Assembly: GCF_963678975.1 (NCBI RefSeq)
Contig: NC_089273.1
Span: 21,780,356-21,844,355 of the forward strand
DNA from: Dysidea avara
Taxonomy: Eukaryota > Porifera > Demospongiae > Dictyoceratida > Dysideidae
Direction: 5' to 3'
DNA: 64,000 nt
Shown: piece by piece, positions 5,490-53,965 of the stretch
How the letters are laid out: each line of letters starts with the position of its first letter
How positions within the stretch are numbered: the first letter of the stretch is position 1
Notes under the pieces: model-generated
Database searches by the model: none
Told to the model about the DNA's origin: nothing
The model's input: only the letters and a program-made list of their open reading frames with translations
Position numbers and translations under genes: made by a program

Positions 5490-5917
5490 ATAAAGCAACT
5501 TTTAAACATTCTTGCTGTGAAGTTTCACACCCATAGCTTCTTTTTCCTAGGAGATATGGATGATTATATCAGACCATGTAGCAAAAAAATTAATGTTCTT
5601 CGATGATGATGTACTATACGTATCTTAGAGAAATAGCAAGTATTTTATTAATAAATGTGATGAATGCTGCTGACTGTATAGCATAAAAGGGAGAATGGAC
5701 ATCATTAAGTACTGCATGCAATTGCATGATACTTTCTACATGTAATCATATACGTAGCTACACTATTTTAGTTGCTGGATATGCCTCTAAAATTTATGTG
5801 TACAAAATAACTTTATACAGAATTAAAATATCAGATTACAGACAATGTAGTTAGCTACTTACACAGCTAGGTAACTTCAGATCAACTTTAAACTGGCCCA
5901 CGGCGGGCCACACTCAA
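5490..5917. other. Spacer between transposon and LINE
   Basis: AT-rich sequence. I see no gene or repeat in it apart from the GC-rich patch just before 5918, which is probably the 5' breakpoint of the adjoining LINE. Confidence 0.6.
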
Positions 5918-6977
5918 GAACACAGCAAGTAAGTGTAAAAGATGCCCTTTCATCCAAGGGACTTGTTACTATTGGAGTTCCTCAGGGGTCTATTTTGGGA
6001 CCTCTGCTGTTTTCAATATATGTGAATGATTTGCCAAATTCAATTACTTTATGTGATGTTAACATGTATGCTGATGACACAGAGTTGCACTATAGTAGCA
6101 GTCAACTGGAAAGAGTGGAGCAAGTACTTCAGAATGGCCTTGAGGAGGTTTCTAACTGGATGTCAGTGAATGGATTTAAATTGAACATTGATAAATCAGT
6201 TTGTATGTTGATTGGTACACGACAAAGAGTTAGTGGTGGGACTTTATGCTTGTCACTTAATGACAGTATGTTGAAGCAAGTGACATCAACCAAGTATCTA
6301 GGTTTGTTTATAGATCAATATTTAACGTGGCAAAATCATATAGATTATGTTTTGAAAAGAGTGAGGGGAAAAATCTACTCTATTAATCGCCTAAAACCTC
6401 CTCCTACTGTCAGGAAGTTACTGTACCAAGTGTATCTTCTGCCCATTCTAGAATATTGTGATGTGGTGTGGCAACCAACAAATGCAAGCCAAACTAGACG
6501 TTTAGAAAGATTTCACTCTAAGTACATTTCTCTTTGTAATGACTCATCTATCTCAGGACAGTCCCTTACTGAACGACGCAAGTTTCATACCATTCTACAA
6601 ACTTACAAAGTATTGCACAAGTTGGCTCCAGATTATCTCCATGGCATATTTGAATATGCTGTTAATGTTACGGGACGTATCAGCAGAAATGCTCATTGCT
6701 TGTTTGTTCCACAGCTACGGACTAATTATGGGAAAAGAAGCTTATATTACAGAGGTACTATATTGTGGAACGCTCTGCCAGCTGCTTTGTATCACGCATC
6801 AACTTTATTTCAATTCAGGAGTAGCTATTTAGAACAATATAATTGTAGTTAATATTAATTTGTAAATGTATGTAGTTTTATACATGTATGCTGTATACAG
6901 GGCGTAGCTGAAAAACAGCTTTGCTGATGCTACCTTCCCTGTTTAAATAAATTGAAAAAAAAGAAAAAAAAAAAAGA
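5918..6977 (+). mobile_element. 5'-truncated non-LTR retrotransposon (LINE), RT part
   Basis: An open frame from about 5918 to 6852 encodes the palm and thumb of a LINE reverse transcriptase and the C-terminal tail. It shows GVPQGSILGPLLF (just before 6010), the catalytic YADD (MYADDTELH, near 6070), the KYLGLFID motif, LLPILEYCDVVW, and a closing YYRGTILWNALP. The endonuclease and the N-terminal RT motifs are missing, as in usual 5' truncation during target-primed insertion. The 3' end has a short tail with AATAAA followed by an A-rich run to 6977. No stop or frameshift interrupts the remaining frame, so the insertion is fairly young. The pattern fits the Jockey/CR1-like group; the exact clade cannot be told. 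Confidence 0.9.
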
Positions 6978-7849: not shown

Positions 7850-10800
7850 TCACATCACAATGTTGATGGACACCATTACAATTGTTAATCCTGCAAGTAT
7901 CGTCCACACTGGTCCAACAATCAGACTGGAATCTGTGTAGAACATTTAATTAAGCAACGAGCTAAGTATATGAGTGGAATTAGGTTTTATACATTATGTA
8001 ACATAAGACAAAACTTCAGAGAGTATACATTAGCACGTAGTATCTATAATTTATCTGTTAACAGGAAGTATGCATGTATTCCTCCACCTTAGAAAACTTG
8101 TAAATAATTTGGCTAGCACCAGTACTTGCAAGTTATGTACACAATAGGGATTTGCCCACAGAGTTATGTTGTAATGCCATTTATGTCATATCATTTGTTT
8201 CACTGCTATTATTGCTTGAATCCCTAATTCATTTATAAAGTAATGTACAGTGGTCCCTCCATTATCCGGACTCATTGGGCTCTAGATGTGTTTGGACAAT
8301 GGAAAAGTTTGGATAAATGAAGCCATACAGTAGAGGCTACAGACAGTTATGAAGCAAAAACGTTAAACTATGAACATGTTTACACTATGGCTGCTTTAAA
8401 GAAACGTTCATATAACTTCATGAACTGAATTAACCCACCCTTTATGTTATTAAAATGTTAAACATATCAGAAAATCAGTTTGGGGATGCCCCCTAGTAGA
8501 TAACTGCTGTGCGATTGATCTATCACTGGAAATAGAGCATGACAACTACTTAACAATCAAGTATGGTGACCATATCCTGTACAACTACATTGATTTTAGT
8601 CAAGCACTGTGACCATGTCCATTTATTAGTCTAGCTGTGCTTATGATAGCATAGTGAAAACAAGGCATGGCAACCACGCAACGTGATGTATTATATAGGC
8701 CAGAAGCTCACTCAAGATACTCTAATAAAGCAGTCATCCTATCATCAATATGATATTCTAATAAAACAGTTACATTAGTATAATTGTGCTGTAGAACAAT
8801 GAGCAAAAATAGTATCAAGATTTCATGACATAAAATAGTGAGGGAGAGTGTTTAACTGTCAATATAGCCTGTACAAAATCACTGTGTATAGACATGGATG
8901 GTTGATCTTTTGATAAAACTATACGTTTTTCCTGCTGATAGAAAACTGTTGATTAGTGTTGAGAACTGATTATAGGTGTTGAATAAGGTAATGCCTTTGT
9001 TCTACTAAGGTATTGATGCTGTCTATTATACTACACAGTGAGATTTCGAATGAGTCTATGGTTAGACACTCTCAGTATTATGAACTCTTGCTAGTACAGT
9101 GGTCCCTCCATTATCCGGCCATCGAATATCTAAACTTTCTGTTATCCAATCTGTGGAAGTGACTGTTCTATTAGAGTATTTAGCCTAAAGTGTATGAAGT
9201 ATTTTAACATGAGCTTTGTGTATAATGAGGTTCAGATTTTTATACTTATAAAAGTGAAGTGTAGTGACTATGCAGCAATACATATTAATTCACCATCACT
9301 ATAATGTAGGAGGTACCATGGAGATTAAATGCAATTATACATGGCAACCTAAAATTAATGTTGACGAACAGCTGTTGTTGACAAGAAGTTGTACAAATAC
9401 AAGTGACACCCTACAAGTTATTCAGGCAATTTTTAAACAAAGTTGTGAAATGACATTTTTATTCTCAAAGAATTATCAAAGATTGGAATGCACTTCCTTG
9501 CAGAGTAGCAGAAGCAAGATGAACAATTGAATTCAAAACTATAATACACCTTGATGAGCACAACAAATTTTTATATTGAACAGAAGCTTTTAAAACTAAT
9601 TTTTGAGTATGCACCCAAAAGAATGCAAACATCTATTTATCGTTTACTACATGTAACAATTACGCAGCTGATTAAAAAATAGAGTGGTCACCTATTCCAA
9701 TAAAGCCGTCAACTATTGTGCATTATCTTGACAACATACACTTGCAAGCATATTAAAGTATTTCAAAATATAATTATATAATTGACTTAAGTCTACTACA
9801 TACCCAGCTGCTCTCTCTATTGCACAGAGTATTGTGTGCATCTAGCTAGCTTTTCTTTAACTGTCCTATTTAATAATTATGTGAGATGAATTATTTAAAG
9901 AAAAAATGAACTATGTAGACAAAAAAGTATCACCTACACAGCTACACATTTGTTGTTAAGGTAGTGTAAATACAAAACTTACATTGATTCCTCAAAAGTG
10001 TGATTAAGGGAGGAGCACTAATAGAGTAGTAAGACGAGAACAGTCAGAACTAATCTAACAGAGCATTCAGAAATGAATTAAAATTAATATGCATTAAAGA
10101 AACTTAAAACAAATGGTTTAATAGGTGAATCTTGAGATTTTTCAATTTGAGATTAGGATACTACTATCCATGATTGTCCCAACATTTGGTAACTAAAAGG
10201 GGAATAAGCATAGAGTATAATTATTGTAAATGATGAATCTACAGTAGCAAAGTTTGAAGTAAACTCTGTCAATGCTAAAATGCTTTAGGGCAAACCTTCA
10301 AATTCTTGCACCGATAATTACAACTCACTATCATCTGGAAGCCACCTTGGTGCAGCCTTTAAAAGACCTGAGTTAAAATTGGTGGATAGGAATCTAGACC
10401 TCCAAGAAAAAGAAAATTAATGTGGACCAAATTTGGTGTTTTACCTATGCTAGTAATAATATTATAATGTAAAAATTGGTGTAATTTTGAGACAAGACCT
10501 GGGATCTATACATGCCATTTTATTCCTATTAATAGCTTTTTTGGCTGCATGTAGCAATACAATGGACTGCGTCAAGTTTTGCTGATATATACACCCTTAG
10601 CCTTTGGGTCTGCGGCCCTTGTGCTTCAGGTGTATAACATAGATATCAGCAAGATCCCTCGCAGCTGTGGTAAAGCTATATATTACATATATATATATAT
10701 ATATAATGCAATTGTGTTTATATGTTCAAACCTGATTGCAGCTCTTTAATTAAAACAGTCATTCCACTGACATGATGATGTGTGGCATGACAATGTAGAA

Positions 10801-12793
10801 GCCACCATCCTGGATTATCCACAACAAATCTAATTACAGTGTATCCACCATATGGCACTGTGACAGTATCCTTTCTGGGATATATTTTCCCTGTGCTGTA
10901 TAAGTCATCAGTGATATTCTTCCACCTTATTTCTTGTATAAAGTCATCGTCATCTCCAATTGTGACAAATCTAGTTGTACAAGAACTATTGTCTGCATTT
11001 ACAACACATTCGATATTCTCATTTGACCTTACAAACAAGCCATTAGAGTCATAGGTAGGATAGCCTATGTCAGCAACATAAAAGTAGTGACCATGAAAAT
11101 GTACTGGATGTGCAACACCTAAATGTAAGTTCGGAATTGCATCCCTATTGGTCAAGACCATTTCAACTACACTGCCCTCCAGTAGATCGCTAATGTTTAT
11201 AACTTGAGTACAAGCACATTGATTAATAGTAGTGGTATCACAACCTCTTCTTGTGCAAATTGCACCAGAATTTTCAAAGTCATTAAAGTGGGTCACAGGA
11301 GGATAAGCTGGAAATCGAAAGGTTACTCCATCAACAGCACTACCAAATGTTGAAGCCTCTCCCTGGAATCCCCAATTAAGGAATATTGTTCTATTAGGAT
11401 AATAAATTTCTTCTGGGACTGTGTCATTCTCAAGCCCTTCAATCACCTCAAAATTAGTACAATTGTAGATGGTACCATACACAGTATATGGGCAGTTGAC
11501 AGCAGTACATTTTGATATAGCATCACAGTCCCAGGTTTCATTGATACTGGAAATATTCATAGTTTCAACATCTGTATAGTGTAGTATTGCTTCTGCTCTG
11601 TGGTAAGTAATTGGGTTAAAGAACACTTCATTATTGCTGAGGTCTATGTCTTCTATTGTCTGTGCCCATATCCAAAAGTCATTCTGCTCTGTGTTGTTTG
11701 CATGGATAACCACATCAAATCTTTCACCACCATTAATTATGACATAGTTCACATTTTCTATTGGCTTTATTGGACTGCCATCAGAAGCTATTACTGTCAA
11801 CTTGTGCCCTTCAACTGAGAATCTGAATGGAGAAGACTCTTGTGCACCAATAAGTCTGAAGCGATATCTGCTACCACGGGTGACGTTAAAGTAGTTCAGA
11901 CTTTGAGGCGTAATATTTGTGTCACCATTTTCATCAAAGTGTCTTCCTTTATCATTGATAATGGCTGACCAAAATGGAACAATTTCAATAAAAGAAAGAT
12001 CTGTTGCCATGGTAGCATTGTACATTACGTATGGTGGGTCATTTACTTGCGACTCTTTAAACCAAAATTGAAGAAAGTCATAATTTAGATATTCAGAAAG
12101 AAATGGCTGACCATACCAGTCCATTAGTATGAGCGTATGTTGATCTGGAAGATCTTCATCATATATATTTCCTGGAATTGTATCCTTCACAATTATTGCA
12201 CCATATAATCCGTCAATTCTCTGAAAACCGCTATGTGCATGGTACCAGTGTGTTCCTGATGGGGAGGCTTTGAATGTGTAAATAAAGTGGTGCAGGGGTT
12301 CGATGGGAAGTTGTGATATAAAGGCAACTCCATCATTCTCTGTTGTGCCAACTTGATGTATTCCATGCCAGTGAACAGTTATACCTTCTTCACTTCTTAG
12401 TTCATTATAAACTGTTACTTGGAGTGTTTGATTTTCATGAGTAATGATAGTTGGTCCAGGCATTTGAGCATTGATAGTTATAATTGTTCTGTAAGTTCCA
12501 TCAGTTTGAATTGGTTCCACAGCTAATTTTGTAGTATCAACACCCGGTAAAAGTGTGACCAAATTACCATTAGAATCAAAAGCAGCTCTATATCCTCTTA
12601 GCTGTTTGAGTTCAGTGGTGATGTTATAGTAAGTCATGGAGGTAAGGTATTCAACCACCAGCGTGATTTCACATGTGTTTTCAACAGATCTTCCTTCAGT
12701 GCAGTTAATAACCTTTTCCTGTGGGTCATATCCTGGTGCAATACAGTATCCAATGCTAGCAATACTTGCTAGTAATATTGATGTTGTCAACAT
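7850..12793 (-). CDS. Membrane-anchored multicopper oxidase (laccase/ferroxidase type)
   Basis: This secretory-pathway enzyme should oxidise a phenol-like substrate or a metal ion and reduce oxygen to water; the substrate is unknown. Exon 1 (12793-10732) encodes a signal peptide (MLTTSILLASIASIGYC) and three cupredoxin domains. All copper ligand motifs are present: HWHG (141-144), WYHAHS (183-188), HPVHFHGH (562-569) and HCHATHHHVSGM (667-678). These include the type-1 Cys668 and an axial Met678. Many NxT/S sites fit an extracellular fold. The frame could stop at 10718, but CAG|GT at 10732 joins in phase 1 to an acceptor at 7933. The resulting exon 7932-7850 encodes a hydrophobic C-terminal helix (LIVGPVWTILAGLTIVMVSI) and a stop, giving 714 residues. 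The enzyme call is very firm. The second exon is inferred, its donor (GTTTGA) is weak, and other exons could lie in the 2.8-kb intron. Confidence 0.9.
8248..8335. mobile_element. Tigger/pogo-like terminal repeat, copy 1
   Basis: It begins CAGTGGTCCCTCCATTATCC, which resembles the termini of pogo/Tigger-type elements, and folds back imperfectly on TTTGGACAATGGA downstream. It lies in the proposed oxidase intron. No transposase is nearby, so this is a solo end or a small non-autonomous copy. Confidence 0.45.
9097..9183. mobile_element. Tigger/pogo-like terminal repeat, copy 2
   Basis: It opens with the same 20 bases as the copy at 8248, in the same orientation, then diverges. It ends with a TGACTGTTCTATTAGAGTAT motif that also recurs elsewhere in the window. 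Confidence 0.45.
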
Positions 12794-26314: not shown

Positions 26315-29300
26315 TTAATCTATTTCAATATGCTTCAATTTAGTGGAGACTTGCTGTAATGCTTGAGCGATGATAGCCTTCCCTACCTCTTGTAACGTAC
26401 ACTTTAACAGATCAATGTGTTTCAGTGAAGTGTTCCTTGTAATAACAGCAGCTATATGATTAGCACCAGCATCAGAAATCGTGTTACTACTCACAATAAG
26501 TGTCTTCAGTGTGTTGATGCTTGATAGTGCATCAGTAATAGTTATAAGTCCAACACTGCTAAGATTACAATTGCACAAGTTGATGTATTGTAGAGATACA
26601 GTTTGATTAATGATCGATGCTACTTCAGTGGAAACATCGTCAGTAATACTATTATTACTAACATTAAAATGAATTAAGCTTATGTTGTTCCTCAAAGATG
26701 TAGCCAACTATATAAATTGTCGTTCTGATATATTACACTCAGAAATATCTAAATGCTTCAGATATTTGTTTGCTGAAAGAATGTTTGCAGCAACTAATGG
26801 ACCTATTATGTTACAACTTACATCCAAACACTGTAATGGGGTATTATTGTCCTTTATCAAAGACTCAGATATAACTTTCATTCCTTCCTCAGATACATTA
26901 CAAGAACTGATTTCAAGTGCAGTTAGAGAAGTGCTTGTAGCAATCAAATCACAGATTTCGTATGCTATTTGATCAGATATTGGATTCCAATTTAAGTTCA
27001 GATGATGCAATACATTGCTTTCACACAGAGTGCCTAATATTCTATTAATTCCTAGCTCTTGTAGTTGGCAATTACAAAGATTTAAATAATTTAGCTTACA
27101 ATTGCAGCTAAGAGCACTAGCTAAGCTTTCAGCAACCCTATTGTTTATTCTATTTTCTGCTATATTCAGATACCTCAAATTAGAAATTGAGCTAAGAAAT
27201 TTACAAATTCTAATAAATCCTTTCTCAGTAAGCTCACAGTAAGACAAGTCTAAATGCTTCAAAGTTGCAGTGCCCATTACAGCAACTGCCAATTTTTCAA
27301 CACTGATATTTTCCAGTGTGTTGTAGCTAATATCAAGGTGAATTAATGATGTTGCCTTTGCCAGACCATTGGAAATCACCTTAGTGCATTGTTCAGTTAA
27401 ACCACATGAAGCAATTGCTAAGTACGTAAGGTTACTATTAGCTGAAATGACTCCTTTCACTACACGTGCAACAGTGCTGGATATGTTGTTGTAACTGAAA
27501 TCCAAGCAGCTCAAACAATCACAACTCTTCAAAGCATTCACTATTTCAAGTAATTCTTTTTCTGGTATATTACAATGCTGTAAGAATAGATGTTTCAGTG
27601 TGTGATTATTGACTATTCCTGATGCTAACAACATGGCAGCTTCACTAAGATCCAAAAAAGAAATGCTTTTGTTATCTCTCAAACAATCAAAAATACATTT
27701 AACATCCGTTCCATGAAAAAGACAATCGGATAATTTAAAATGATTTAGCAGATCACACTTGAGAATAGCTGTGCTAACATGTTCGATAGTCACATTATTA
27801 AAGGTGTTACCGCTCATATCAAGGTATTCAATAGATGAAGACTTCACTGGCCAAAAGCTGTCCATTGGTAAAACACACGATGCCAAATTCAGCCAATTTA
27901 TTCCTTTATTTGCATCTAAAACATTCTCCAACTGGCTAGTGGTAAAGTCAGCCAACTCATTTTCACTGATATCTAGTTGCTGTAATGATGATATACTTTG
28001 TAAAGCACAAAATATACTGTTAAGGCTACCTAATTGCATCTTGCAGTTTCTCAGTAGCACATGTTTAATGTTTGTAAAACAATGGGATAAATGATCTGCT
28101 ACCTGATCACTGATTACATTATAGCTTAAACTAATATAACACAATGAAGGTAGTTCAGATAGTGAAATTGTTATCATCATGAGTCCTTCTTCTCTTATCA
28201 TACACTTACTCAGATCTACATGACTTAACTCAATATTAGCTTCTGCAACCTTGGATAACAGGATAGCTGAAGAAGTATCAATAATATTAGAGGATAAATT
28301 AAGAAAAGTTAATGTTGGTATTTCCTTTAAAGCATCTAAAATGTAATACAGTCCCTGTTGTTGCAACTTACAATTCAATTAGCACTCTCATTGGTAATGT
28401 AATTATCACTGAAGTCACAATGTCTCAGTGACTTAATCATTCTTAAGGATTCAATAATCATGAGCATTCCTTGTTCCTTTAGTTCAAAATGACTTAAACA
28501 CAAAAGTTCTAGGCAGGTATTACAATTTATGACTGATGCCAGTAATTTAGCTGCCTTGTTACAAATAACTATAGTACTAATACAAATATGTCTTAGCACT
28601 GAAGAATGTTGTAGAGCGGTTATTATTTTAATGAGACATTGTTCATTTATATTATTATTCATCAGTTCAAAAGATTCTAAAAATTCATGATCATGACCAA
28701 TGCTGTTGCTTACCTGACATGCCTCCTCATCAGTAATATCACAGTTTACAATACTGAGATGACATAGTGGGGTACTAAACCGTATCAGCTGAAAAACATG
28801 TATAACATATTCAACTTCATCTAGTTCTTCACTGATTGTATTTGATTTTGATTTATTTTCCTCAACTATAATATTAGTTACAGTATTTAAGGATTGAATT
28901 TGTACTATCTCAAAGAGAAGAACCATACATGTAACACCCAAGCTGTTTAGCACAGAGACAGTTGCATTAGTAGACTGTAAAATTTCTGCACCACCTATTG
29001 CAATGTGATTAACAACTGCAGTGAGTTTAATGGTATCCTGCTGCACAGATGAAGACAAATATTTATTATTATCACAAATGATGACACTCCTGTTTGTAGC
29101 AATAACTTGCAATTGCAATGGTAAGCATTCAAACATGCCTTGTTCAACATTTGAAGTAATGATACGTCTAAGTTCAAATTGATTAATGTCATTGCCAGCA
29201 ATAATAAGTTGTTCAGTTTTCCAGCATAAGAACATTTGAACAATGTCTTTCAAAGATGATGATGTTAAATGATTACAGGAAAGATTAAGTTGTGTAACAG

Positions 29301-30419: not shown

Positions 30420-32845
30420 AGAACTGTCCATGGTGGTTTCTGTGTAACTGAACACTCTTCAAGGCAACTTCTTCTAGCTGATCTACAGGGTGATTTGTTT
30501 GTAGCTGAACTATTAACAAGGTAACTTCTTCTAGCTGTTCTCTCTACAGGGTGATTTATTTGTAGCTGGATTCTGTACAGGTGATTTTTTTGCTGCTGAG
30601 CTTACAGAATGGTTTCTTTGTAGCTGAACTCTCTACAAGGTAACTTCTTCTAACTGATCTCTCTACAGGGAGATTTGTTTGTAGCTGAACTCTCTACAGG
30701 TGATTTGTTTGCAGCTTAACTATCTAGATGATGGTTTCTTTGTAGCTGAACTCTCTACAAGGTAATTTCTTCTAGCTGAACTCTCTACATGGTGGTTTCT
30801 TTGTAGCCGAACTCTCCACAAGATAACTTCTTCTAACTGATCTTTCTACAGGGCAATTTGTTTGTGGTAGAATTTTCTACAGGGTGATTTCTTTGCAGCT
30901 GAACTCTCTACATGGTGGTTTCTTTTTACTGTAGCTGAACTCTCTACAAGGTGATTTCTTCTAGCTGATCTCTCTACAGGGTGATTTGTTTGTAGCTGAA
31001 CTCTCTACAGGTGATTTGTTTGCAGCTGAGCTCTTTACAGAATGGTTTCTTTGTAGCTGAACTCTCTACAAGGTAACTTCTTCTAACTGAACTCTCTACA
31101 GGGAGATTTGTTTGCAGCTGAACTCTCTTCATGATGGTTTCTTTGTAGCTGAACTCTCTACAAGGTAACTTCTTCTAGCTGAACTCCGTACATGGTGGTT
31201 TCTTTGTAGCTGAACTCTCTACAAGGTGACTTCTTCTAGCTGATCTTTCTACAGGGTGATTTGTTTGTAGCTGAATTCTGTACAGGTGATTTGTTTGCAG
31301 CTGAGCTCTTTACAGAATGGTTTCTTTGTAGCTGAACTCTCTACAAGGTAACTTCTTCTAACTGAACTCTCTACAGGGAGATTTGTTTGCAGCTGAACTC
31401 TCTTCATGATGGTTTCTTTGTAGCTGAACTCTCTACAAGGTAACTTCTTCTAGCTGAACTCCGTACATGGTGGTTTCTTTGTAGCTGAACTCTCTACAAG
31501 GTTACTTCTTCTTTGTATAGGGTGATTTGTTTGCATCTGAACTCTCTATATAGTTATTTCTTTGTAGCTGAACTCTCTACAAGGTGACTTCTTCTAGCTG
31601 ATCTCTCTACAGGGTGATTTGTTTGTAGCTGAACTCTCTTCATGATGGTTTCTTTGTAGCTGAACTCTCTACAAGGTAACTTCTTCTAGCTGAACTCCCT
31701 ACATGGTGGTTTCTTTGTAGCTGAACTCTCTACAGGTGATTTGTTTGCAGCTGAACTCTCCACATGATGGTTTCTTTAAATTTGTAGCTGAACTCTCTAC
31801 AAGGTAACTTCTTCTAGCTGATCTCTCTACAGAGTCACTAGTTTGTAAATGAATTCTCTACATGGTGGTTTCTTTGTAACTGAACTCTCTACGAGGTAAC
31901 TTCTTCTAGCTGATCTTTCTATAGGGTGATTTGTTTGTAGTGGAATTCTGTAAAGGTGATTTTTTTGCAGCTGAGCTCTTTACAGAAAGGTTTCTTTGTA
32001 GCTGAACTCTTTACAAGGTAACTTCTTCTAGCTGATGTCTCTACAAGGTCACTAGTTTGTAAACGAATTCTCTACACAGTGGTTTCTTTGTAACTGAACT
32101 CTCTACAAGGAAACTTCTCCTAGCTGATCTCTCTACAGGGAGATTTGTTTGTAGTTGAACTCTCTACAGGTGATTTGTTTGCAGCTGAACTCTCCACATG
32201 ATGGTTTCTTTGTAGCTGAACTCTCTACAAGGTAACTTCTTCTAGCTGATCTCTCTACGGGTGATTTGTTTGTAGCTGAATTCTGTACAGGTGATTTGAT
32301 TGCAGCTGAGCTCTTCACAGAATGGTTTCTATGTAGCTGAGCTCTTTACAAGGTAACTTCTTCTAGCTGATGTCTCTACAGGGTCACTAGTTTGTAAATG
32401 AATTCTCTACATGGTGGTTTCTTTGTAACTGAACTCTCTACAAGGAAACTTCTCCTAGCTGATTTCTCTACAGGGAGATTTGTTTGTAGCTGAACTCTCT
32501 ACAGGTGATTTGTTTGCAGCTGAACTCTCTACATGATGGTTTCTTTGTAGCTGAACTCTCTACAAGGTAACTTCTTCTAGCTGATCTCTCTACAGGGCGA
32601 TTTGTTTGTAGCTGAACTCTCTACATTGTGGTTTCTTTGTAGCTGAACTCTACAAGGTGATTTCTTCTAGCTGAATTATCTCTTTCTATAGTTGCATGAA
32701 TTCCCTACAAGGTAATTTCTTCTAGCTGATCTCTCTACAGGGTGAATTGTTTGTGGCTGATCTCTCTACAGGGTGACTTGTTTGTAGCTGATCTCTATAC
32801 AGGTTACTTGTTTCTAACTGATCTCTTGAATTCTCTTCGGATGAC
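30420..32845. repeat. 2.4-kb minisatellite, about 30-bp unit with higher-order repeats
   Basis: The unit is about 30-31 bases around GTAGCTGAACTCTCTACA, preceded by variants of GGTTTCTTT, TAACTTCTTC or TGATTTGTTT. Variants occur in a recurring order: a stretch starting CTCTTTACAGAATGG at 31031 recurs 275 bases later at 31306, so groups of about nine units have been copied together. Related groups restart near 31975 and 32306. The 61-codon frame at 32133-32318 is an artefact of the repeat. Confidence 0.95.
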
Positions 32846-33690: not shown

Positions 33691-34758
33691 TTAAGGATTT
33701 TATATTGAGGAGAGATGTTGGAAATAATGGCATTATTCAGTTTGCTGTAATCAATATTGTTATTAGCTACTACAAGCTCTTCTACAATACAATGACAGAG
33801 AATTTCAATAAGCGATTTAATAACAGAAGTAGCTAGTCAAGTCATTATTTGAGAGGTCAAATTTCTTTAAGTGAAATGACCTTTCTTTCATTCACAAATA
33901 CATGAGTAAAACAGATCTAATTGAGCATCCTGAAACATCAATGGAATACAAATCAGGTGAGCAGTTAGTTAAAACAGCATCCAATACTCCATCATCTAAT
34001 AGGTTGCAATTGTTTATCTGTAACACACAGACTTTATTTAAAGGATAATGCAAAACAACATGTTTAATTTGTTTTTCACAAGTCCCATAAGCTAACAAAT
34101 GTGTTTGTGACAGTAATACAAATTGCATCTCCTCAATGGTCTGATGGACAGCCACAATTTCCTTCAACTTCATGGCAGTTCCTAAAGCAGCTTCATCAGT
34201 ATGGTCAACTTGAACAATGCTGATTGTTGAAACTTTCACAGTTTGTAAAAAGGGCACAATGGTGGTTATAATGCCATCTGATGACTCAGATACAACAAGA
34301 CTACCAACTGCCAAATTGTTCTGTAATGGATATTGTAAGATGCTATCATCAATTCTGCAGTTAATCAAATACATGCTACAAAATTTATCATTTGTTACTT
34401 GCAAGTCAATGTCTACTGGATCATTAATTACAATCAAGGGACGTTCTGTAATACAATTACATATAGTGGTGTGCTGTATACATATTTCAGAAAGTAAAGC
34501 ATCTCTTAATGCATCATCAGATACACCATTGTATGAAAGAACGAACTCATCTACTATGCACAGCTGAAGTAACTTGATGATACAAGATATGGAATAAGCT
34601 GTTGACAATATGTTGTTGGACAAATTCAACAATTGTATTACAGCTTTAGTGCTTGAAATGTGATCGCATAATGTTGTAAGACGCCTATCATCAATCCTGC
34701 AATCTGATAAATCAACTACTTCCCAACACTGCTCACTACTGGATATGTATGATAACAC
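33690..34758 (-). pseudogene. Middle LRR block of the NLR pseudogene
   Basis: The frame from 34758 begins SYISSSEQCWEVVDLSDCRI, the same pattern as the start of the preceding block (NKQWEVLNLSECYI) and of the distal block (NKHWKSINLSGCNI). The LRR region is therefore built from at least three related modules. TGA at 33892-33894 interrupts it. The LRR pattern continues beyond as LKKFDLSNNDLT, then in another frame as IVEELVVANNNIDY, up to the insertion. Confidence 0.8.
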
Positions 34759-36766
34759 CTACTTCACCTAACATTTCATGTGTGAGATAACAGTTTGTTA
34801 TTTGGAGCACTGTCATAAACTGACAAGTAGTGTTTAGCAAGATGATTTTATTAAAATATAAATGTGCTCTGAAAATTAACAGAATATTATCAGATTTGAA
34901 AGCATAACTGACATTATTTGTAAGACTCCTATCTACTTGATCTTGTAACACAGTGTCTTGTAGCACAGCATGTGGCTGATATGGTATGTGCCACTCAACG
35001 ATCTCACTACTATCCAAGCTGATGTTAAATATGCTTACTTTCAATCTCGGATTACTTGTAAGCAACACTATGACATCATTAACGTTAATCTTGCAATTCC
35101 ATATGTACAATGCAGGGACATGATTGAATGTTCCCATATCATTTAGTTCTCTCAAACGGGTATTAGATTTAGTGTTGATAATATATACTGATTCTTTTTT
35201 TACGCTTCCATGGTTTATGGAATCCTGACTGGTAAAGCTTCCCGAGTCACTCACAACAACTAATGGTATATAAAAGGTGTGGGCATGGTTGACCATTGCA
35301 CAATTAAGAAGCTCCTTTAAAATTATTTCATCAGCTAAATTGTTGTTTACAGTAATTAGTTTTTGAACTTTCAAATAAAGCACCAAGTTACAAACATCAG
35401 AAAGAGAGGATGGTGTTATGTGATTACTTGAAATGTCTAAAAGTTTTAGAATAGAAGTATTTAGCTGGTTAAGATATAATTTTACAAATATTTTAAAACC
35501 ACGATCTTCAATATAACATTCTGACAGGTTTAAAACTTCCCACTGTTTGTTAGATGATCTGGTCAAGAAGAAACCAAGAGTGTGCATGTCCTTAGGCAAC
35601 AATACTTGACCACTAAGATCAATTTTCCTCTCATGCAAAAAGTTTCCAACCTGCTCACACATTGTGTTATTTCCTGCCTCAAAGAAACACTGGAACAAGT
35701 GGAGACATTTAATTTTATCATTGACCATATCTTGTAATACACCACTTGCACCAAAAAACCTACTAAACAGTAAGAAACGATTTCCAGATAAATAGTGTTT
35801 TAAGGCAAGAGAATTACCTCCAGTTAACCCACAGTACATAATCCATGTATTAAGATATCTACTGTTCCAAAAATTTCCACAGATTATTTTCTCTTGTTCT
35901 GAAGTAGACGATGAAGCTACGTGAAATGCAGTCAAGAACTCTAGAAGAGAAAAGTGCATGAAATTAAACGGAACCTGTTCGCAATTGTCTACAAAGTTAA
36001 AGTACTTCACAGCTTTTAACAATCCCATACCATTTATGTTCTTGGAAAGCTGGAGTGATTTTGAAGAGACATCTGCATTACTAAATACTATTTTATCTTT
36101 GCCAAGAAGATTAAATGCAAGTTTTGACAATTCTTTCATTACCTGTTTATACCTCCCTGGCATTTCAAACAATGAGTTGATATTGAGTGGTATACTTTCT
36201 TTCTTTCTAAAATACCTTGAGATGGTCATGCATATAAACTGGTTGTTTATTTCAGTCTGAGTTTTTGGTAATTCAGACTGAGTTGTTTCAGTGAATAAGC
36301 ACATTAATATAGTCATGTTTAATGGAATATAACACAAACTATTGATAAATGGATTAGACTGTAAATATGCTGACATTTCATCAACATTAGTGGGGTTATT
36401 TTTAAAAGCTTGGCAAATATATTTTTTTCGATCTTCATCAGTAAATCCTAAAATTTCAATTCTACGATCCACTATTTTGTGAAGACGTGCAGATACTGTT
36501 GGTCGAGAAGTAATCACTATATCACAACATGGTAAGACGTTTTGGTTGATAATGTCCACAACAAATGATTCTTTTCTGAGTATCTCTAGTAGTTCATCAT
36601 AACCATCAAACACAAATAAGAGATCTTTACCAGAAGTATTAATGAGATAGTCAGAGAAGGTTTTTACCATTTGATTTCCTTGACAAGCACATGTGATATA
36701 TTGAGCTAACTGAGCAAAAGAGGTAAGCTTTTGAACACTAGGATCACGTAAAAATATCAAAACCAA
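34736..36766 (-). pseudogene. NACHT domain and first LRR block of the NLR pseudogene
   Basis: A 676-codon stretch starts just after the TAA at 36773-36775. It carries RDPSVQKL, Walker B VFDGYDEL, the ITSRPT sensor motif, NMTILMCLF, the winged-helix signature FMHFSLLEFLTAFH, and LRR sequence from NKQWEVLNLSECYI. It has no ATG at its start, so this is not a separate gene. At its end the frame must change near 34750 to enter the next LRR block. Confidence 0.85.
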
Positions 36767-37455
36767 GACTTTTTAATGTTTTAGCATCATTCTGTTTGCC
36801 CAGAGAAATACAATTTCTTTTGATAGAACTGTTTTACCAATTCCTGGTGCATTAGTATTGTGTATGAAGTTGACCTACCATCATCTGAACATGACGGAAA
36901 GATTTCATAGATATTATTGGTATATTTACAGCTTGTAAGATATTGCTCAGCAACTATTCCTTCTTCATCGCTATAGCTATATCATTCAGTGATGTGATTT
37001 CTCCTTTGTGCATTTGTGTTGCAATGTAAATTACTGCTTTTTTAGTAATCATTTTTCTATATGATGAATAAGGGCTACAGTGGTATACACTTCAGGTTGA
37101 TATGGAGGCCATTCATCATCACAGACCTCAAACCGCTTTCTAATATACATATCTTATAAGATACTGGTTACTTCAGGAATCTCCACCTCTAAACTACTAC
37201 CAGAACCTGAAATATCAGAGGAAATCAAATCAATGGCTGATATAACCTTCTTCCATGATGCGTTGCTGTCTAAGTCAAGCCAACCTTCCCAGACTGCATT
37301 AAAGCAATCTTCAGCTTTATGGTAATAGTCGTGATCTATGCTGTCTAATACACCTTTTTGAATACCTAGGGACTCTCCAATTTCCCTCCATTTAGCAGCA
37401 TATTTTGGAGTTACAAAGTTATGTAAGTCTTTTAATTTGGGTTTGGCTGCACACT
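36767..37455 (-). pseudogene. Death domain, linker and broken P-loop of the NLR pseudogene
   Basis: An acceptor (TTTTGTTTTAG) opens an exon at 37455 whose frame reads as a Death domain (YAAKWREIGESLGI, then CFNAVWEGWLD). The linker follows with EWPPYQPEVYTTVALIHH, a sequence typical of sponge NLRs. Between them TAA occurs at 37154-37156. After a frame change near 37053 the sequence continues MITKKAVIYIATQMHKGEIT to TAG at 36954-36956. Two more frame changes lead to the P-loop, whose first glycine is lost (NAPGIGKT), and TAA at 36773-36775. This is the most damaged part. A first exon like that of the intact NLR was not found. Confidence 0.82.
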
Positions 37456-47454: not shown

Positions 47455-50400
47455 TTACTTGCGGACACACTTTGGTGTTGAAAAATATGCTCCCTTTTCG
47501 CATATCGCAGGGCTACTACCTTGAAGCTTATAGCCTCGTTTGCATGTGACGTAGGCAAATAAGAAATCACCTATTTCTTGGCAAGTTGCATCTCCATTGT
47601 TAACATCCAAACATGTGCATACTTCTAAAATAAACAAAACAAATATTAATCATAAACTTAGACACAATAATTTATTTTGGTGCTGTACCAATTACAAGCA
47701 CAAGTAAAAATTAGAAATTTTAAGTACGATTAGGGAAAATTGAGGGTAGGGATTAAATGTATACTAGTATATATCTTCATGTATAGGCAACCTCTCTTGT
47801 TTGTGCATACTGCATTAGAAGAAAGAATGGTGCTAGGCATATTGTTATAGTCTGAGTGTGCACCCCAACTATCAAATACTGAAATAGTGAATTGTGAAGT
47901 GGCCATTATGCTTCGTTTTTAGTTACGTACAGCCTGTTACACAGCATTCAAAAGAAGAACACCACAAGTAGAACCTCTGTAATCAATACAGTCACAGGGA
48001 AAAGATCAGATGATTCCCACTACGAATATAGCTATAGGGAAACCATCATGTGGCACTACCACAAATTGTCGCATTTTGCAAAGATATATATATATGGGAC
48101 ACAAAGGAGGACACAGGTAAGTCCATGAAGCATGCAATGTACATACCGTGGTATGTCAAAAGGAATTGAAGCAATGTCGAACAGTGAAAAAATCAGGCCC
48201 ACAGCCTTAGCCGTTATCAAGTAAGGCATCAGTTAGGCGGTCAGTCAGTATTTGTAGCAACCTATTAGAAACATTTCAGATTGTACTGAAGGCATTTTTT
48301 TAGGCTTGGTTAAAGCATTATACATAACCAAAGCACCATGAAGGTATTGTGAAGCTGGTCTTAGAGTGATATGTTGGTCAGACCTTCATAATCCCTAATA
48401 TGTAGTACTATCTCACTGTATGATATGTCATGCCATCATACAAACAAGTTGGAGAACTTACTGTCACATTTAGTTTGACTAGGGATTCTGTTCCATACAC
48501 CAAGTTCTGTACAGGTAAACTGTTTAAGTCCTTTCATTATAAATCCTTTATCGCAGGTCAAAATCATATCATACTCAATTTTCATGTCATCCATTATCAG
48601 TTCATGATCTCCATTCTCCAGATTAAAATCCATAGGGCACATTCCTATAAAATAGCAGTAAATAAATTGCATATGTGTGTATTTATGTGTGTGTAAACTG
48701 TAGAAGCAGGTTATCTAGGTAGTGTTAATGGGTACCTGTCGAAGCAATACCAACTATCTATGTCTCATATAACAGGTGATGTTCCAATGGGGCTTTGGAT
48801 ACCAACACCTTCTCATGTGAGACATGGTACAGTTTCCTACAGGCTACCACCAAGACAATTTACCTGCACTGACTTTCAGTACCTATATATAAATAGTAGG
48901 CCAAGTGAAATTTTGTGAATGCTATTCCTGTGGGAAGGCTTAAAGCCGGTGAATACAGGGAGTCAGAAACATGTAAAATATCTGTATCTTTTATAGACCT
49001 GCAATTGACCAATGCCAATACTCATCCATTGATACAATATCAGTATCGGTACAGCTCTACGTATACATATACCATAAGGAAAAGTTAGCAGTAAATTATC
49101 CTCTATTGCATCATTCAGCATATTGTAAACAACAACAACAATGGACTTTAAACACACCCGCATGCATACACACACGAATCCTTCGACTGTCGTATACATG
49201 GTCTTGCCAATGCAGTGAAATGCAACACTGGAGCAGTATAAGTACTATGAAAAATATCATTATAAAAGTACTGTTAAAATAGCACTCTAAAATCACAAGT
49301 GCCTGGGTAGCTAAATAGTGAATTCCTTGACTAGTATGAATTACATGGTATGAGTTTGAATCCCCAAATCAGTTAGGTTTTGTCTGTTTCTTAAGGATAT
49401 TTGTATCATCTTTTTAGTGGTCTATTTTTTATGCTATTGCACTGACTAGTTTGGATTAGTAAACACTTTTGTGATTGGTCATATAGGTAGCTAAAAATAA
49501 AAGGATTACAATATTGGAAAGCATATGAGAAATCTAATTTAGCCACAGTGTTCATACTATACTGGTATATACTATTAGTATATTATCACAAAATAATGAC
49601 TAGTTGCATTTTTGAATTATTGGCTGTGTCTTCAATATTGGTTCAATAGAAAACTTGTATTGGAAATAGACAATAAATATTGGATATCCCTGTATAAATT
49701 TAGCTACTACCAGCTTATATTAACTTACTGCGACATTTTGGCATAGGTGATGACCAGGTTCCATTTGGTTGACATGTTATTACAGAAGGTCCAATCAGCA
49801 TAAAATTAGGGAGAGGTGTATATGTAACTGTAGCACCGGCTTTAGTACCACCAGAGTTGGATGTTGTTCCACATTGCAGAGATTCATATTGTGGGCAGCG
49901 TTTTTCTAATTAGACAAAAACAGAGAAAAATGCACTAATTGCAACCATTGTGCACACGGTATTCATATTAACAACATTATATCGATGCATTTGATCTTTG
50001 AACTGAATGATCTATACACAGGAGACTTAAGTTACATATGTATTACCTCTATGTATGTTTGTTGTACTTTATGTTGTTGTATGTATGTGTGCCTCTCTGG
50101 CAGGAATGAACAGCTTTGTCTGACTGTTTAGAGGTAATAAACAATCAATCAATCAATCATGTAGTTAGACTGCACTATAGATGTCATGAAAGTCTCTGTA
50201 CTGTGGCATATGATATGTATTTGTTATACTGCTTGCAGTCATACATGTTATAACTTACTGTTTGATACACACTTTGGTGGAAATCCTTCCCATTTGCCAT
50301 CACTACATAGCCGTTTCTGGAAACCTGACACTGCATAACCAGTAGGGCAACTGTAAACTGCTAGGGAGCCATGTACTGGTGGGTTATTATGCCGTACAGA

Positions 50401-53400
50401 CCCAATAGGAATGTCTTCAGGGATCGGACACTGCTTAACTACATGAGGAAGTAAACCAGTTAACTCACTTTACCAGATAAACTGATCAAGTCTGTACACA
50501 GTCTATAATGTGCTCTTAGAATGGTAGAATATACGTATGCATGTCTGTATTATAAGTAATGGCATAATATAAAATACAAATAATTTGTTTGTAATATCGT
50601 GTTTGGTAACTCACTAGTACACATTTGAAGTGGAAACTTCCATTTTCCATGCTCACAATAGTTGACTCCTCCTCCATTCAATTGATATCCTTTGTTGCAC
50701 TTTAGATTTGTGGCATACAGAAATACACTAGTTTCTACTATACGAAAGTTGCCATTGCGAAGTTTAAATGGTGGACAATCTGTAACGACAAAACGCACAC
50801 ACACTGACTACTAAATTGTATATAGCTAATATACTGTAGATAGATGGTGAGATTAGCAATTAAATTAAAAATGCAGAGCTATGGTTTCTTAAAGACTATC
50901 TGAACTCACTGAGAATTACATAATGTTGTAATGACCTCACCCTTATGTACATATAAATCAAAAACTGGCTATATACAGATGTACAGTATTAGATGCAAGA
51001 TTTGGTAAGTGCTTCAGTTTTATTCATGTGGCAATGAATCTCTACATAGGTACTTTATTATGTGCTTAGTTGTGTAATAGTGTAGGAAGTTCTTTCTCAC
51101 AGTGTGGTTGAGGGTATAACATGCCACAGTGAGTGGGCCACACACATGGTCATTGAATGAATATTATAATACTGCACACATACCTTGGCAACTGGGTACA
51201 ACACCTGTCCATTTTCCATTCTTGCAAGTAAGCTGCTTGTCACCAACTAAACCATAACGTGTTGCACAGGTATATGTTGCTACAGCTCCTTCTTCAAGAG
51301 TATCAGGAATATCAATTAATGCTTTGGATACGGTAGGAGGGTTGTTACACATTGGTACTGCATTGGATACACATTTCACATTAAAACATCTGTGAGTTAT
51401 TATATACACTATATATTCCTACACTAAGTTTGTGGGTATTTTGTACACACTCCATTCACATTGTTATAATAATTATTTATTGTTGAATGTAATCAATGAT
51501 TAAACGCTATAACATGAGCTAACTCAGCCTGTCTGGGTGTAATATTTTAGCTACAAACTAGTGTTTTGATCATATTACAAATGAAAATAACAAGTTACTA
51601 AGGAACTTATCACTTCAAGGATTGCAGAAACAATAATACAAGGTTATTACATACATGTACATAATAGTAATAGGTTCTTTACACACACTGTATGTATGTA
51701 TGTATGCATGTATGTATGTATGTATGTATGTATGTATGTATGTATGTATGTATGTATGTATGTATGTATGTATGTATGTACGTATGTATGTATGTATGTA
51801 TGTATGTATGTATGTATGTACGTATGTATGTATGTACATACATATGTATGTGTGTGTATGCATGTATGTATGTATGTGGTTGTAAGTATATGTATTTACG
51901 TACATAAGTATGAATCTATGTACACATATACAGACATACTGTTCATACAGTATGTAGTATCTAATTGCAGAGGTGGCTACTGGGAGTAGCAGTAACAATG
52001 TACTGAAACATTAGTACACTTATTTCTCTAGTTGCAGTCAATACTGTTGTATACAACACATCACATCTACTGTGACTAATCGTAACAAAGTGGTGTCAGC
52101 TCTAACCCAGTTCCTGGTATACTACATACTACAAGTATTTTTGATTGACTGTCAAGTAGTTTTATATGAATACATGAACAACAAGATATTTGATTTGATT
52201 GACCACTTTGTCACTGACTTCTACTGTTGTGTGGTCATATTATTGTTATTCTAAACTTTGTTGTCAAAACTACCATCTATAGTTTATTATTAACATAATA
52301 CCTGGTTGTGGTAATCTAATAGGGGTAGGTTGTTGAGTGCTGGGAGTGGTTGGTGGTTTGGTTGGTTGACTGGATGCACACTTTGGAGGATTTCTGTTCC
52401 ACTCAATTCCAACACATTTTATCTTCTTATTACCCCTCATTGTATAGCCCTCATTACATTGGTAACGAGCCACTGATCCATCGGTAGTAGAATCATATTG
52501 CACTACTCCATTTTGTATTTCAAGAGGTGGAGGGCATCCTATAGCAAATATGACTATCGGTAAATATGCTTATGTGTGTACGTGCTCTGATTACCAGGAG
52601 TGGTGCTGGGAGTAGTTGGTGGATTGGTTGGTTTACTGGTAGGGATGGTTGGTTTACTGGTAGGGGTGGTTGACTGACTGGTTGGTCCTGTAAAACATTA
52701 ACAAATAAGTAGTATGAGCAGTTTGTCACATTAATACATAATCACAATCATCACACACAACTATTCATACAATGAGGATAAGTCAACTGAGAACTATCAC
52801 TTACAAAAACACCACACCACAAAATTAAGTGTACAGTATTGTTTTTTAACACAATAATGACCTTTAGATACACACACACACTCCAAGTTATGTATGTGTT
52901 TTAATCTAGGTAATACAAAGTGCACAAAGAAACTGTGCACTTTATAGTGATTCAATTGATCTCAGAACATTAATTGAATAATCAACCACCACCAACTGTT
53001 AAGATAATTGTGTCACAAATTTTCTAATCTTAATTAAAACAAAACCACCAGTTGCTTGGGTGGTGATATCTAGGTGTTTACTTAATCAGCCGCAAAAAAG
53101 GAAATGTAAGTAAAATAAAAGTTTCATAGGCAAAATTGTTTGCAATTACAAGCCAATTACAACATATGTAGAGGTGGCTCTCCTTAAAAGATGTCATTAA
53201 ACCACAATGCAGCCATATGTTAGAACACATGCTGTACACCAGAAAGGACATGATTTTACCTCCTGTGTTTATTTTACCTGTTGGAGTAGTAAACTGATTG
53301 TTGATCCATTCATAATATTTACAGATTGACAGTGCTGCTATTGTATTGGACCCTTGCATACATCCGAATGTTGTCATGGCATATAGTGTGTTGTCATCTT

Positions 53401-53965
53401 CAATGAAGCTGCCTGGTTTCTCGGCACATGCAGAAGTATTAAAGCAGGTCTGGGTTGATCCCTGCCAATTGGGCTTATATAAATTTTTACATTTCTTATT
53501 TTCATCTTTCTGGATGGGTGAATTGGTGATAGTCTTTTTGTTGATGACGTTAATAACAGAAAGGTCATCGGCTTTGTATATTTGTCTGCAGTTATCACTA
53601 ATGGTCGCTTTAGCCAGTATAAACTTGGGGGTCTCAAACTTTACCAGGGCAAGATCAGCAGCTTGAGAAGTAGCATAATCGGGATGAATTATAATACCAT
53701 CTTTTACCACTTTGATCCTCATTGATTTACCAGATGTAGAGTATTGCAGGGCTGTAGCTTTAATTGACAAGGAATCATTCTGTGCACAGTGAGAAAAACA
53801 GCTGGCAGCAGTAATCAAACAGTCATCAGAAATGATGGCTCCAAGACAACAGGACTTTTCACCACTTGATTGACACTTTGCTGTAAGTGTGGCCACCCAG
53901 AATGGCTGCTGGGCTAGTGTGACTGCAAGAATAGTCAGAAAGATGATGATTAATGCACCCTTCAT
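47455..53965 (-). CDS. Secreted serine-protease-homologue with seven CCP/sushi domains
   Basis: Nine exons: 53965-53278, 52687-52595, 52538-52302, 51357-51184, 50779-50615, 50438-50259, 49905-49729, 48644-48462 and 47624-47455. All joins are phase 1; the sum is 2067 bases, giving 688 residues. Exon 1 encodes a signal peptide (MKGALIIIFLTILAVTLAQQ) and a trypsin-like domain. It keeps the Asp (DLALVKF, D104) but has Ser for the catalytic His (TAASC, 55). The GDSGG site is replaced by EKPGS, with Pro for Ser, and there is no IVGG start, so it should not cleave peptides. Exon 2 is a Thr/Pro linker with repeated TSKPT. Exons 3-9 each hold one CCP domain (four Cys, G-x-W, P-x-C); exon 3 adds a second Thr/Pro stretch. 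No membrane anchor is seen. The design suggests a complement-like binding protein; haptoglobin also combines CCP and dead protease domains, but in the opposite order. Function is inferred. Confidence 0.88.
50000..50160 (+). mobile_element. Possible LINE/SINE 3' tail in a CCP intron
   Basis: It ends with GGTAATAAACAATCAATCAA and further ATCA units after CTCTGGCAGGAATGAACAGC, the style of a LINE or SINE 3' end closed by a short tandem tail. No coding part is present. Confidence 0.35.
51691..51882. repeat. (GTAT)n microsatellite in a CCP intron
   Basis: About 45 units of GTAT with a few GCAT, GTAC and GTGT variants. Long Tyr/Val/Cys/Met frames across it on both strands are artefacts. It lies between CCP exons 3 and 4. 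Confidence 0.97.

Follow-up and report, generated by a model that had tools for sequence, protein, structure and literature searches.

A catalytically dead S1 domain heads a seven-CCP protein in Dysidea avara

On the minus strand of the analysed window, i.e., a 64-kb stretch of the genome of the sponge Dysidea avara (C2:21780356-21844355), a nine-exon gene (53965..47455) encodes a 688-aa product that runs from a signal-like start through a trypsin-like (S1) domain and a Thr/Pro linker into seven CCP/sushi domains. The S1 domain lacks two of the three catalytic residues, and the gene belongs to a multigene family in which the same domain order recurs. We lean towards reading the product as a secreted non-catalytic binding protein that carries the S1 fold as its head, i.e., as a haptoglobin-like protein with the domain order reversed.

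A preliminary description of this stretch had proposed an intact gene over nine exons, and its limits (47455-53965) indeed correspond to the stop and start of the minus-strand model (Table 1). All eight introns are of the GT-AG type and of phase 1, and the join between exon 1 and exon 2 is supported by the splice sites, the phase, the Thr/Pro linker that reads across the junction, and the matching exon order of the paralogues. Pfam analysis of the whole protein returned a Trypsin match (39.8 bits) followed by seven Sushi stretches (150.9 bits, above the curated cut-off), which, together with the active-site alignment detailed below, agrees with the earlier reading of a dead S1 domain ahead of seven CCP domains. 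The linker announced in that reading was also recovered, since 76% of the residues between the S1 domain and CCP1 are Thr, Pro or Ser.

Table 1. Exons of the S1/CCP gene in window coordinates.
Feature	Position	Strand	Content
Exon 1	53278..53965	-	signal-like start (~residues 1-18) and complete S1 pseudoprotease domain
Exon 2	52595..52687	-	Thr/Pro/Ser-rich linker
Exon 3	52302..52538	-	CCP1 and second Thr/Pro linker
Exon 4	51184..51357	-	CCP2
Exon 5	50615..50779	-	CCP3
Exon 6	50259..50438	-	CCP4
Exon 7	49729..49905	-	CCP5
Exon 8	48462..48644	-	CCP6
Exon 9	47455..47624	-	CCP7 and stop codon

The N-terminus is hydrophobic (mean hydropathy of 3.41 over 11 residues), its signal-like character being judged by hydropathy rather than by a signal-peptide program. 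No later membrane anchor was found in the protein, in which the best 19-mer reaches a hydropathy of 1.56 and lies inside the S1 domain. Within the CCP array, CCP5 (exon 7) has Pro at the second main Cys position, which is Cys in the other six CCPs, and carries another Cys upstream, while CCP7 (exon 9) has six Cys and is followed by no transmembrane-like stretch. When the whole protein was compared with the PDB, 57 sequences were matched at E up to 1e-5, with CR1 as the best, and in all 57 the best-matching stretch was the CCP part. The CCP arrays of factor H and CR1 are thus akin in sequence to the present one, a likeness of CCP repeats in general, and we know of no S1 domain in either protein. 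Models made from the window gene revealed no further S1 or CCP exons in the 64-kb window.

Fold and active site of the S1 domain

Exon 1 on its own matched the Pfam Trypsin model with 42.9 bits over residues 29-221 (cut-off 20.6), and PF00089 was likewise matched by all ten family members scanned (of 13 loci). A family profile built from 10 of the 13 loci retrieved 476 PDB sequences at E up to 0.001, S1 proteases being the best, with plasma kallikrein first (E 1.2e-13) and with the best matches spanning positions 5-217 of 220; many of the best 60 of these 476 matches span the first half of the profile only. A single-sequence AlphaFold model of the domain was of low confidence (pLDDT 42), and it is the sequence profiles that uphold the trypsin-like fold originally proposed for exon 1. 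The prokaryote library NCBIfam gave no match, a scan of viral contigs with the family alignment gave no locus, and a scan of genome contigs with the same alignment gave seven loci, all from Streptomyces and with 26-32% identity.

The catalytic positions were read by alignment with L011, an S1 exon of the same genome that bears an intact triad. Position 57 is changed from His to Ser (LITAASC) and position 195 from Ser to Pro (CAEKPGSF where L011 has CQNDSGGP), and Asp102 is retained (DLALVK). In place of the His57-Asp102-Ser195 triad of active S1 peptidases, the window gene has Ser, Asp and Pro, so that the claimed loss of two of the three catalytic residues held up in this alignment; Gly193/Asp194 read as Glu/Lys. 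A regular-expression test also agreed with the claim that the activation start is missing, in that the window frame has no IVGG-like start, although this test is one-sided because the active L011 exon lacks such a start as well and a positive control was thus absent. Moreover, the signal-like start passes directly into the domain (QQPFWV), with no pro-segment in between. Judged from its frame, the domain appears to have lost both its chemistry and its means of activation.

The S1-then-CCP layout recurs in a family of thirteen loci

A search of the genome (550,814,596 bases on 108 contigs) with the window S1 domain yielded 15 matches including itself, among them one partial extra copy and one EGF-type domain (L012). 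The CCP-type loci number 13, i.e., the window gene, L031, L032, L026, L029 and eight loci clustered on C4 (37.56-37.68 Mb). L031 and L032, whose S1 domains are 93% identical to that of the window gene, lie on the same strand at distances of 37 and 67 kb, past the right end of the window. L026 (C2:25.36 Mb) has an S1 domain 26% identical to the window's, and L029 (C2:21.11 Mb) is a diverged family member on the contig of the window.

CCP exons were found downstream of the S1 exon, on the same strand, in 12 of the 13 loci (i.e., the window gene, L031, L032, L026, L029 and seven of the eight C4 loci, namely L041 with L044 and six more). Since this layout is shared by so many paralogous loci, it represents a family rather than an oddity, which also strengthens the earlier reading, in which the order is the opposite of that in complement proteases and haptoglobin. 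The thirteenth locus, L037, has a broken frame, with no CCP in the 2.2 kb examined (L053). The paralogue CCP exons were located with models derived from the CCPs of the window gene and then from those of the paralogues; an independent Pfam check, which covered L026 and L044, placed five of five CCP exons of L026 over the cut-off, and four of five in L044 at E up to 0.01, three of these over the cut-off.

The S1 exon is free of stops in 12 loci, and His57 is lost in all 13 (Ser in 12, Arg in L026). Position 102 is Asp in four loci and Asn in nine. At position 195, L026 has Ser, despite its missing His57, and L029 has Glu; for the C4 copies this position was not aligned by MAFFT, and by eye CANKPVAV would give Pro.

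In L031, exons 1-8 were recovered with GT-AG sites, exon 9 was found as well (in L045), and a partial extra S1 exon is present. Exons 2 and 3 are missing from the portion of L032 that was read, and GT-AG sites border the exons found there, with one acceptor AG a few bases from its first placement. The CCP exon trio of exons 4-6 occurs twice in L032 (5015-6117 and 3135-4247). CCP number thus apparently changes by exon-block duplication, as L032 illustrates, which is allowed by the symmetry of the phase-1 exons.

Divergence differs between the C2 array and the C4 cluster

For the three pairs in the C2 array, dN/dS was 0.46, 0.59 and 0.33 in the S1 exon and 0.88, 1.46 and 0.83 in CCP exons E4-E8. 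By Fisher's test, replacement changes per site were fewer in the S1 exon than in the CCP exons in two of the three pairs (p of 0.016, 0.22 and 0.007), whereas the excess of silent over replacement changes was significant in one of three pairs for the S1 exon (p of 0.076, 0.29 and 0.014) and in none of three for the CCP exons. Over its 688 bases, window exon 1 shows 24 differences from L031 and 22 from L032 (3.5 and 3.2%), and over 879 bases exons E4-E8 show 52 and 35, respectively. The intron comparison, which covered introns 4 and 5, gave 27 differences over 547 aligned bases with L031 and 19 over 570 with L032 (4.9 and 3.3%). Exon 1 diverges about as much as these introns, which makes constraint in the C2 array less convincing.

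The C4 copies are more diverged than those of the C2 array, and their pooled dN/dS was 0.41 for the S1 exon, 0.54 for CCP1, 0.19 for CCP2 and 0.26 for CCP3, values that serve as a guide since the 21 pairs, from seven of the eight copies (L037 omitted), are not independent. On the strength of these comparisons, the dead S1 domain looks constrained in C4 and less surely so in C2, with support that falls short of strong. The slower part is the S1 exon in the C2 array and, in terms of replacement changes, CCP2 and CCP3 in the C4 cluster. A general rule under which the head would always be the slower part was considered and discarded, as it is true in the C2 array and fails for CCP2 and CCP3 of C4. 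Since the slower part differs between both groups, either the S1 head or the CCPs could be the recognition end, and the earlier picture of a pseudoprotease binding tip carried on a CCP stalk is not established by these values.

Relation to known proteins

In the complement proteases C1r/C1s/MASP and factor B/C2, CCPs precede an active C-terminal protease. Like the window protein, these proteins are secreted and combine CCP and S1 domains, but the protease of the window protein comes first and is dead. Ovochymase and oviductin are proteases with CUB modules after the protease domain; they resemble the window protein in placing the protease domain before the binding modules and differ from it in that these modules are CUB and the proteases active. 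In haptoglobin, whose proteinase domain is catalytically dead, cleavage gives rise to a CCP alpha-chain and a proteinase beta-chain, with pairing through the CCP, whereas in the window protein the S1 domain comes first and seven CCPs follow. Nevertheless, haptoglobin shares with the window protein the union of CCP and serine proteinase domains and, according to the portion of the source at hand, binds haemoglobin via the latter (PMC3678498).

In the sections available to us, Babonis et al. (2019, PMC6767649) ascribe to sponges one trypsin-Sushi protein and a pair of trypsin-PDZ paralogues. They state that ctenophores have trypsin-Sushi proteins as well, that Sushi is among the common domains of the N. 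vectensis trypsin set, and that N. vectensis possesses a non-catalytic trypsin clade without associated domains; the legend of Fig. 4 names Amphimedon queenslandica. The sponge trypsin-Sushi protein is like the window protein in uniting Trypsin and Sushi in one sponge protein, whereas the present family comprises 13 loci, all without His57, a comparison made with a description that, in those sections, carries no domain order, triad or Sushi number. Moreover, unlike the N. vectensis non-catalytic clade as portrayed there, the dead domains reported here are accompanied by CCPs.

Sponge SRCR genes carry Sushi among other domains (PMC6208332, in the text available), and a legend in PMC11797021 lists ctenophore SRCR proteins that also bear CCP and trypsin-like domains. 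A dead S1-first CCP protein is not described in the portions at hand of PMC6208332, PMC6733828 and PMC11797021, nor is such a family in any title or start of abstract among the papers listed in searches of the open literature (subscription papers being outside this scope). The initial remark that no protein of this layout was known has to be tempered by the sponge trypsin-Sushi protein mentioned in the accessible part of PMC6767649. The joining of a dead S1 domain to CCPs as such was already known; what is added here is the reversed order and the multigene scale.

A candidate binding protein

In the binding protein that we favour, the S1 fold would form an N-terminal head devoid of catalysis and activation, the Thr/Pro linker would space this head from an anchorless CCP array, and a ligand would most likely be held by the head, the CCPs, or both, probably in surface or mucus defence or in adhesion. 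In its favour we count the intact nine-exon frame with Trypsin and seven Sushi matches, the PDB profile match (E 1.2e-13), the absence of His57 from 13 of 13 loci and the presence of downstream CCPs in 12 of them, the dN/dS of the S1 exon, the hydrophobic start without a later anchor-like stretch, and the precedent of haptoglobin. Against it we count the weak constraint on the S1 exon in C2, the unconstrained CCP exons E4-E8 in the same array (which would also fit decay), the broken L037, and the Ser at position 195 of L026 in spite of the missing His57.

A whole gene family headed by the dead protease shows that the S1 fold has been reused, probably for binding, in an animal lineage that likely branched off early. 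Should the head bind ligands, the family would stand as an independent parallel to haptoglobin and supply sponge immunity with a new set of candidate recognition proteins. The conversion of an enzyme fold into a binding repertoire could also be tested directly in this family.

An alternative that we rate as unlikely is a structural protein of adhesion or mucus, in which a gel or matrix filament would be built from the mucin-like linker and the CCPs, with the head serving for assembly only. Linker-like frames rich in Thr, Pro and Ser lie between the S1 domain and the CCPs in the window gene, L031, L026 (as a short candidate exon) and the seven CCP-bearing C4 loci, where they are open over 98 to 356 aa, and it is because these C4 linkers are long that a structural mucus role deserves consideration. 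The lack of a visible anchor and the loose constraint on the CCPs of the C2 array point in the same direction. However, the window gene, L031 and the L026 candidate have short linkers, no such frame (over 25 aa, over 40% T/P/S) was found before the first CCP of L032 or L029, and dN/dS is low in CCP2 and CCP3 of C4 (0.19 and 0.26).

The longest of the linker-like frames, in the C4 paralogue L054 (1013-2080, minus strand), is a 356-aa Thr/Pro-rich repeat frame with TEAVTPRP-like units, and its counterparts vary in length among the C4 copies.

Other S1 domains of the genome

The genome was further searched with the Trypsin model exon by exon and the best 35 candidates were scored, a procedure that proteases split over small exons may escape. 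Among these 35, 34 were S1 matches, 31 of which miss His57, the residue being kept in L011, L024 and L028. L011 had plasminogen first in a PDB search, and L024 is HtrA-like by reading of its frame, which holds GNSGGP; the Tyr that the alignment put at position 195 of L024 was rejected, as it is contradicted by this motif. A search for Sushi domains gave at least 150 matches (150 scored of 1757 candidates), an abundance that, like the NACHT and LRR frames of the window, would be in keeping with an animal such as a sponge.

Eighteen of the 31 S1 domains without His57 (L012-L023, L025, L027, L030, L033, L034 and L036) are of an EGF type, i.e., with EGF before the dead S1 domain, as classed by eye with a Pfam check on L016. 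Position 57 in these 18 is occupied by E (6), S (4), G (2), K (2), R (1), A (1), Q (1) and T (1). Across the ten full-length EGF-type domains, its column (R,S,G,A,G,E,K,Q,E,K) comes 12th in variability among 231 and is flanked by an invariant TSA and C, and Asp102 is invariant, while the Ser195 column, with Y, I, P and T, is unremarkable at rank 87 of 231. In a tree of S1 domains that included only two active sequences and left out L024, L028, L036, L037 and L025, the CCP type and the EGF type fell into separate groups; the node that sets all dead domains apart from L011 had a support of 0.92, and the CCP-type node one below 0.7.

It is conceivable, if doubtful, that this animal has turned nearly its whole set of S1 domains into a scaffold for recognition, with the old active-site cleft serving as a ligand pocket that varies across a germline-encoded repertoire. 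The 31 of 34 matches without His57, which are spread over tandemly arranged gene families that carry EGF or linker/CCP parts, speak for such a scaffold. The variability of position 57, on the other hand, fits either a changed pocket or the loss of constraint on a free site, since a site freed of constraint would vary too, and the unremarkable Ser195 column argues against a variable pocket.

Somewhat less probable again is a regulator of protease cascades, whose dead domain would serve active S1 proteases, or the inhibitors of these, as decoy or cofactor. Regulators built from a dead S1 domain and regulatory modules are known, insect serine protease homologues act as regulators of the decoy or cofactor type, and the window gene keeps Asp102 and much of the framework. 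Nevertheless, few active S1 partners were seen, which makes this role less likely: only 3 of the 34 matches (best 35 scored) keep His57, although split genes may have escaped, and the unsplit GDSGGP codon pattern with Ser occurs at two sites, neither of which is a convincing S1A exon. The pattern GGNGAYWSNGGNGGNCC, directed at active S1 partners, gave 39 matches versus 33 in the control, the two unconvincing sites with Ser being among the 39.

Finally, it is highly improbable that the cluster is decaying or the model an artefact, i.e., that exon 1 and the CCP exons stem from different genes or that the copies are pseudogenes, since S1 exons are followed by CCP exons in 12 loci without stops in their S1 exons, GT-AG sites border the exons found in L031 and L032, and dN/dS is 0.41 in C4, where divergence is larger, even though L037 is broken, L031 holds a partial extra S1 exon, and in C2 exon 1 diverges almost like introns 4 and 5 and CCP exons E4-E8 as much or more.

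Neighbouring features in the window

On the minus strand, a pair of NACHT frames and one long LRR frame (2-2227, 34739-36772 and 26711-28378) fit NLR-type immune receptor genes, and the candidate recognition family of dead S1/CCP proteins would thus stand beside an NLR-type stretch. A long open frame on the minus strand (10721-12793) corresponds to a multicopper oxidase with three Cu-oxidase domains. The window further contains a 2.4-kb tandem array of 61- and 92-base units (30432-32826) and, on the plus strand (5875-6849), a reverse transcriptase match that probably belongs to a mobile element.
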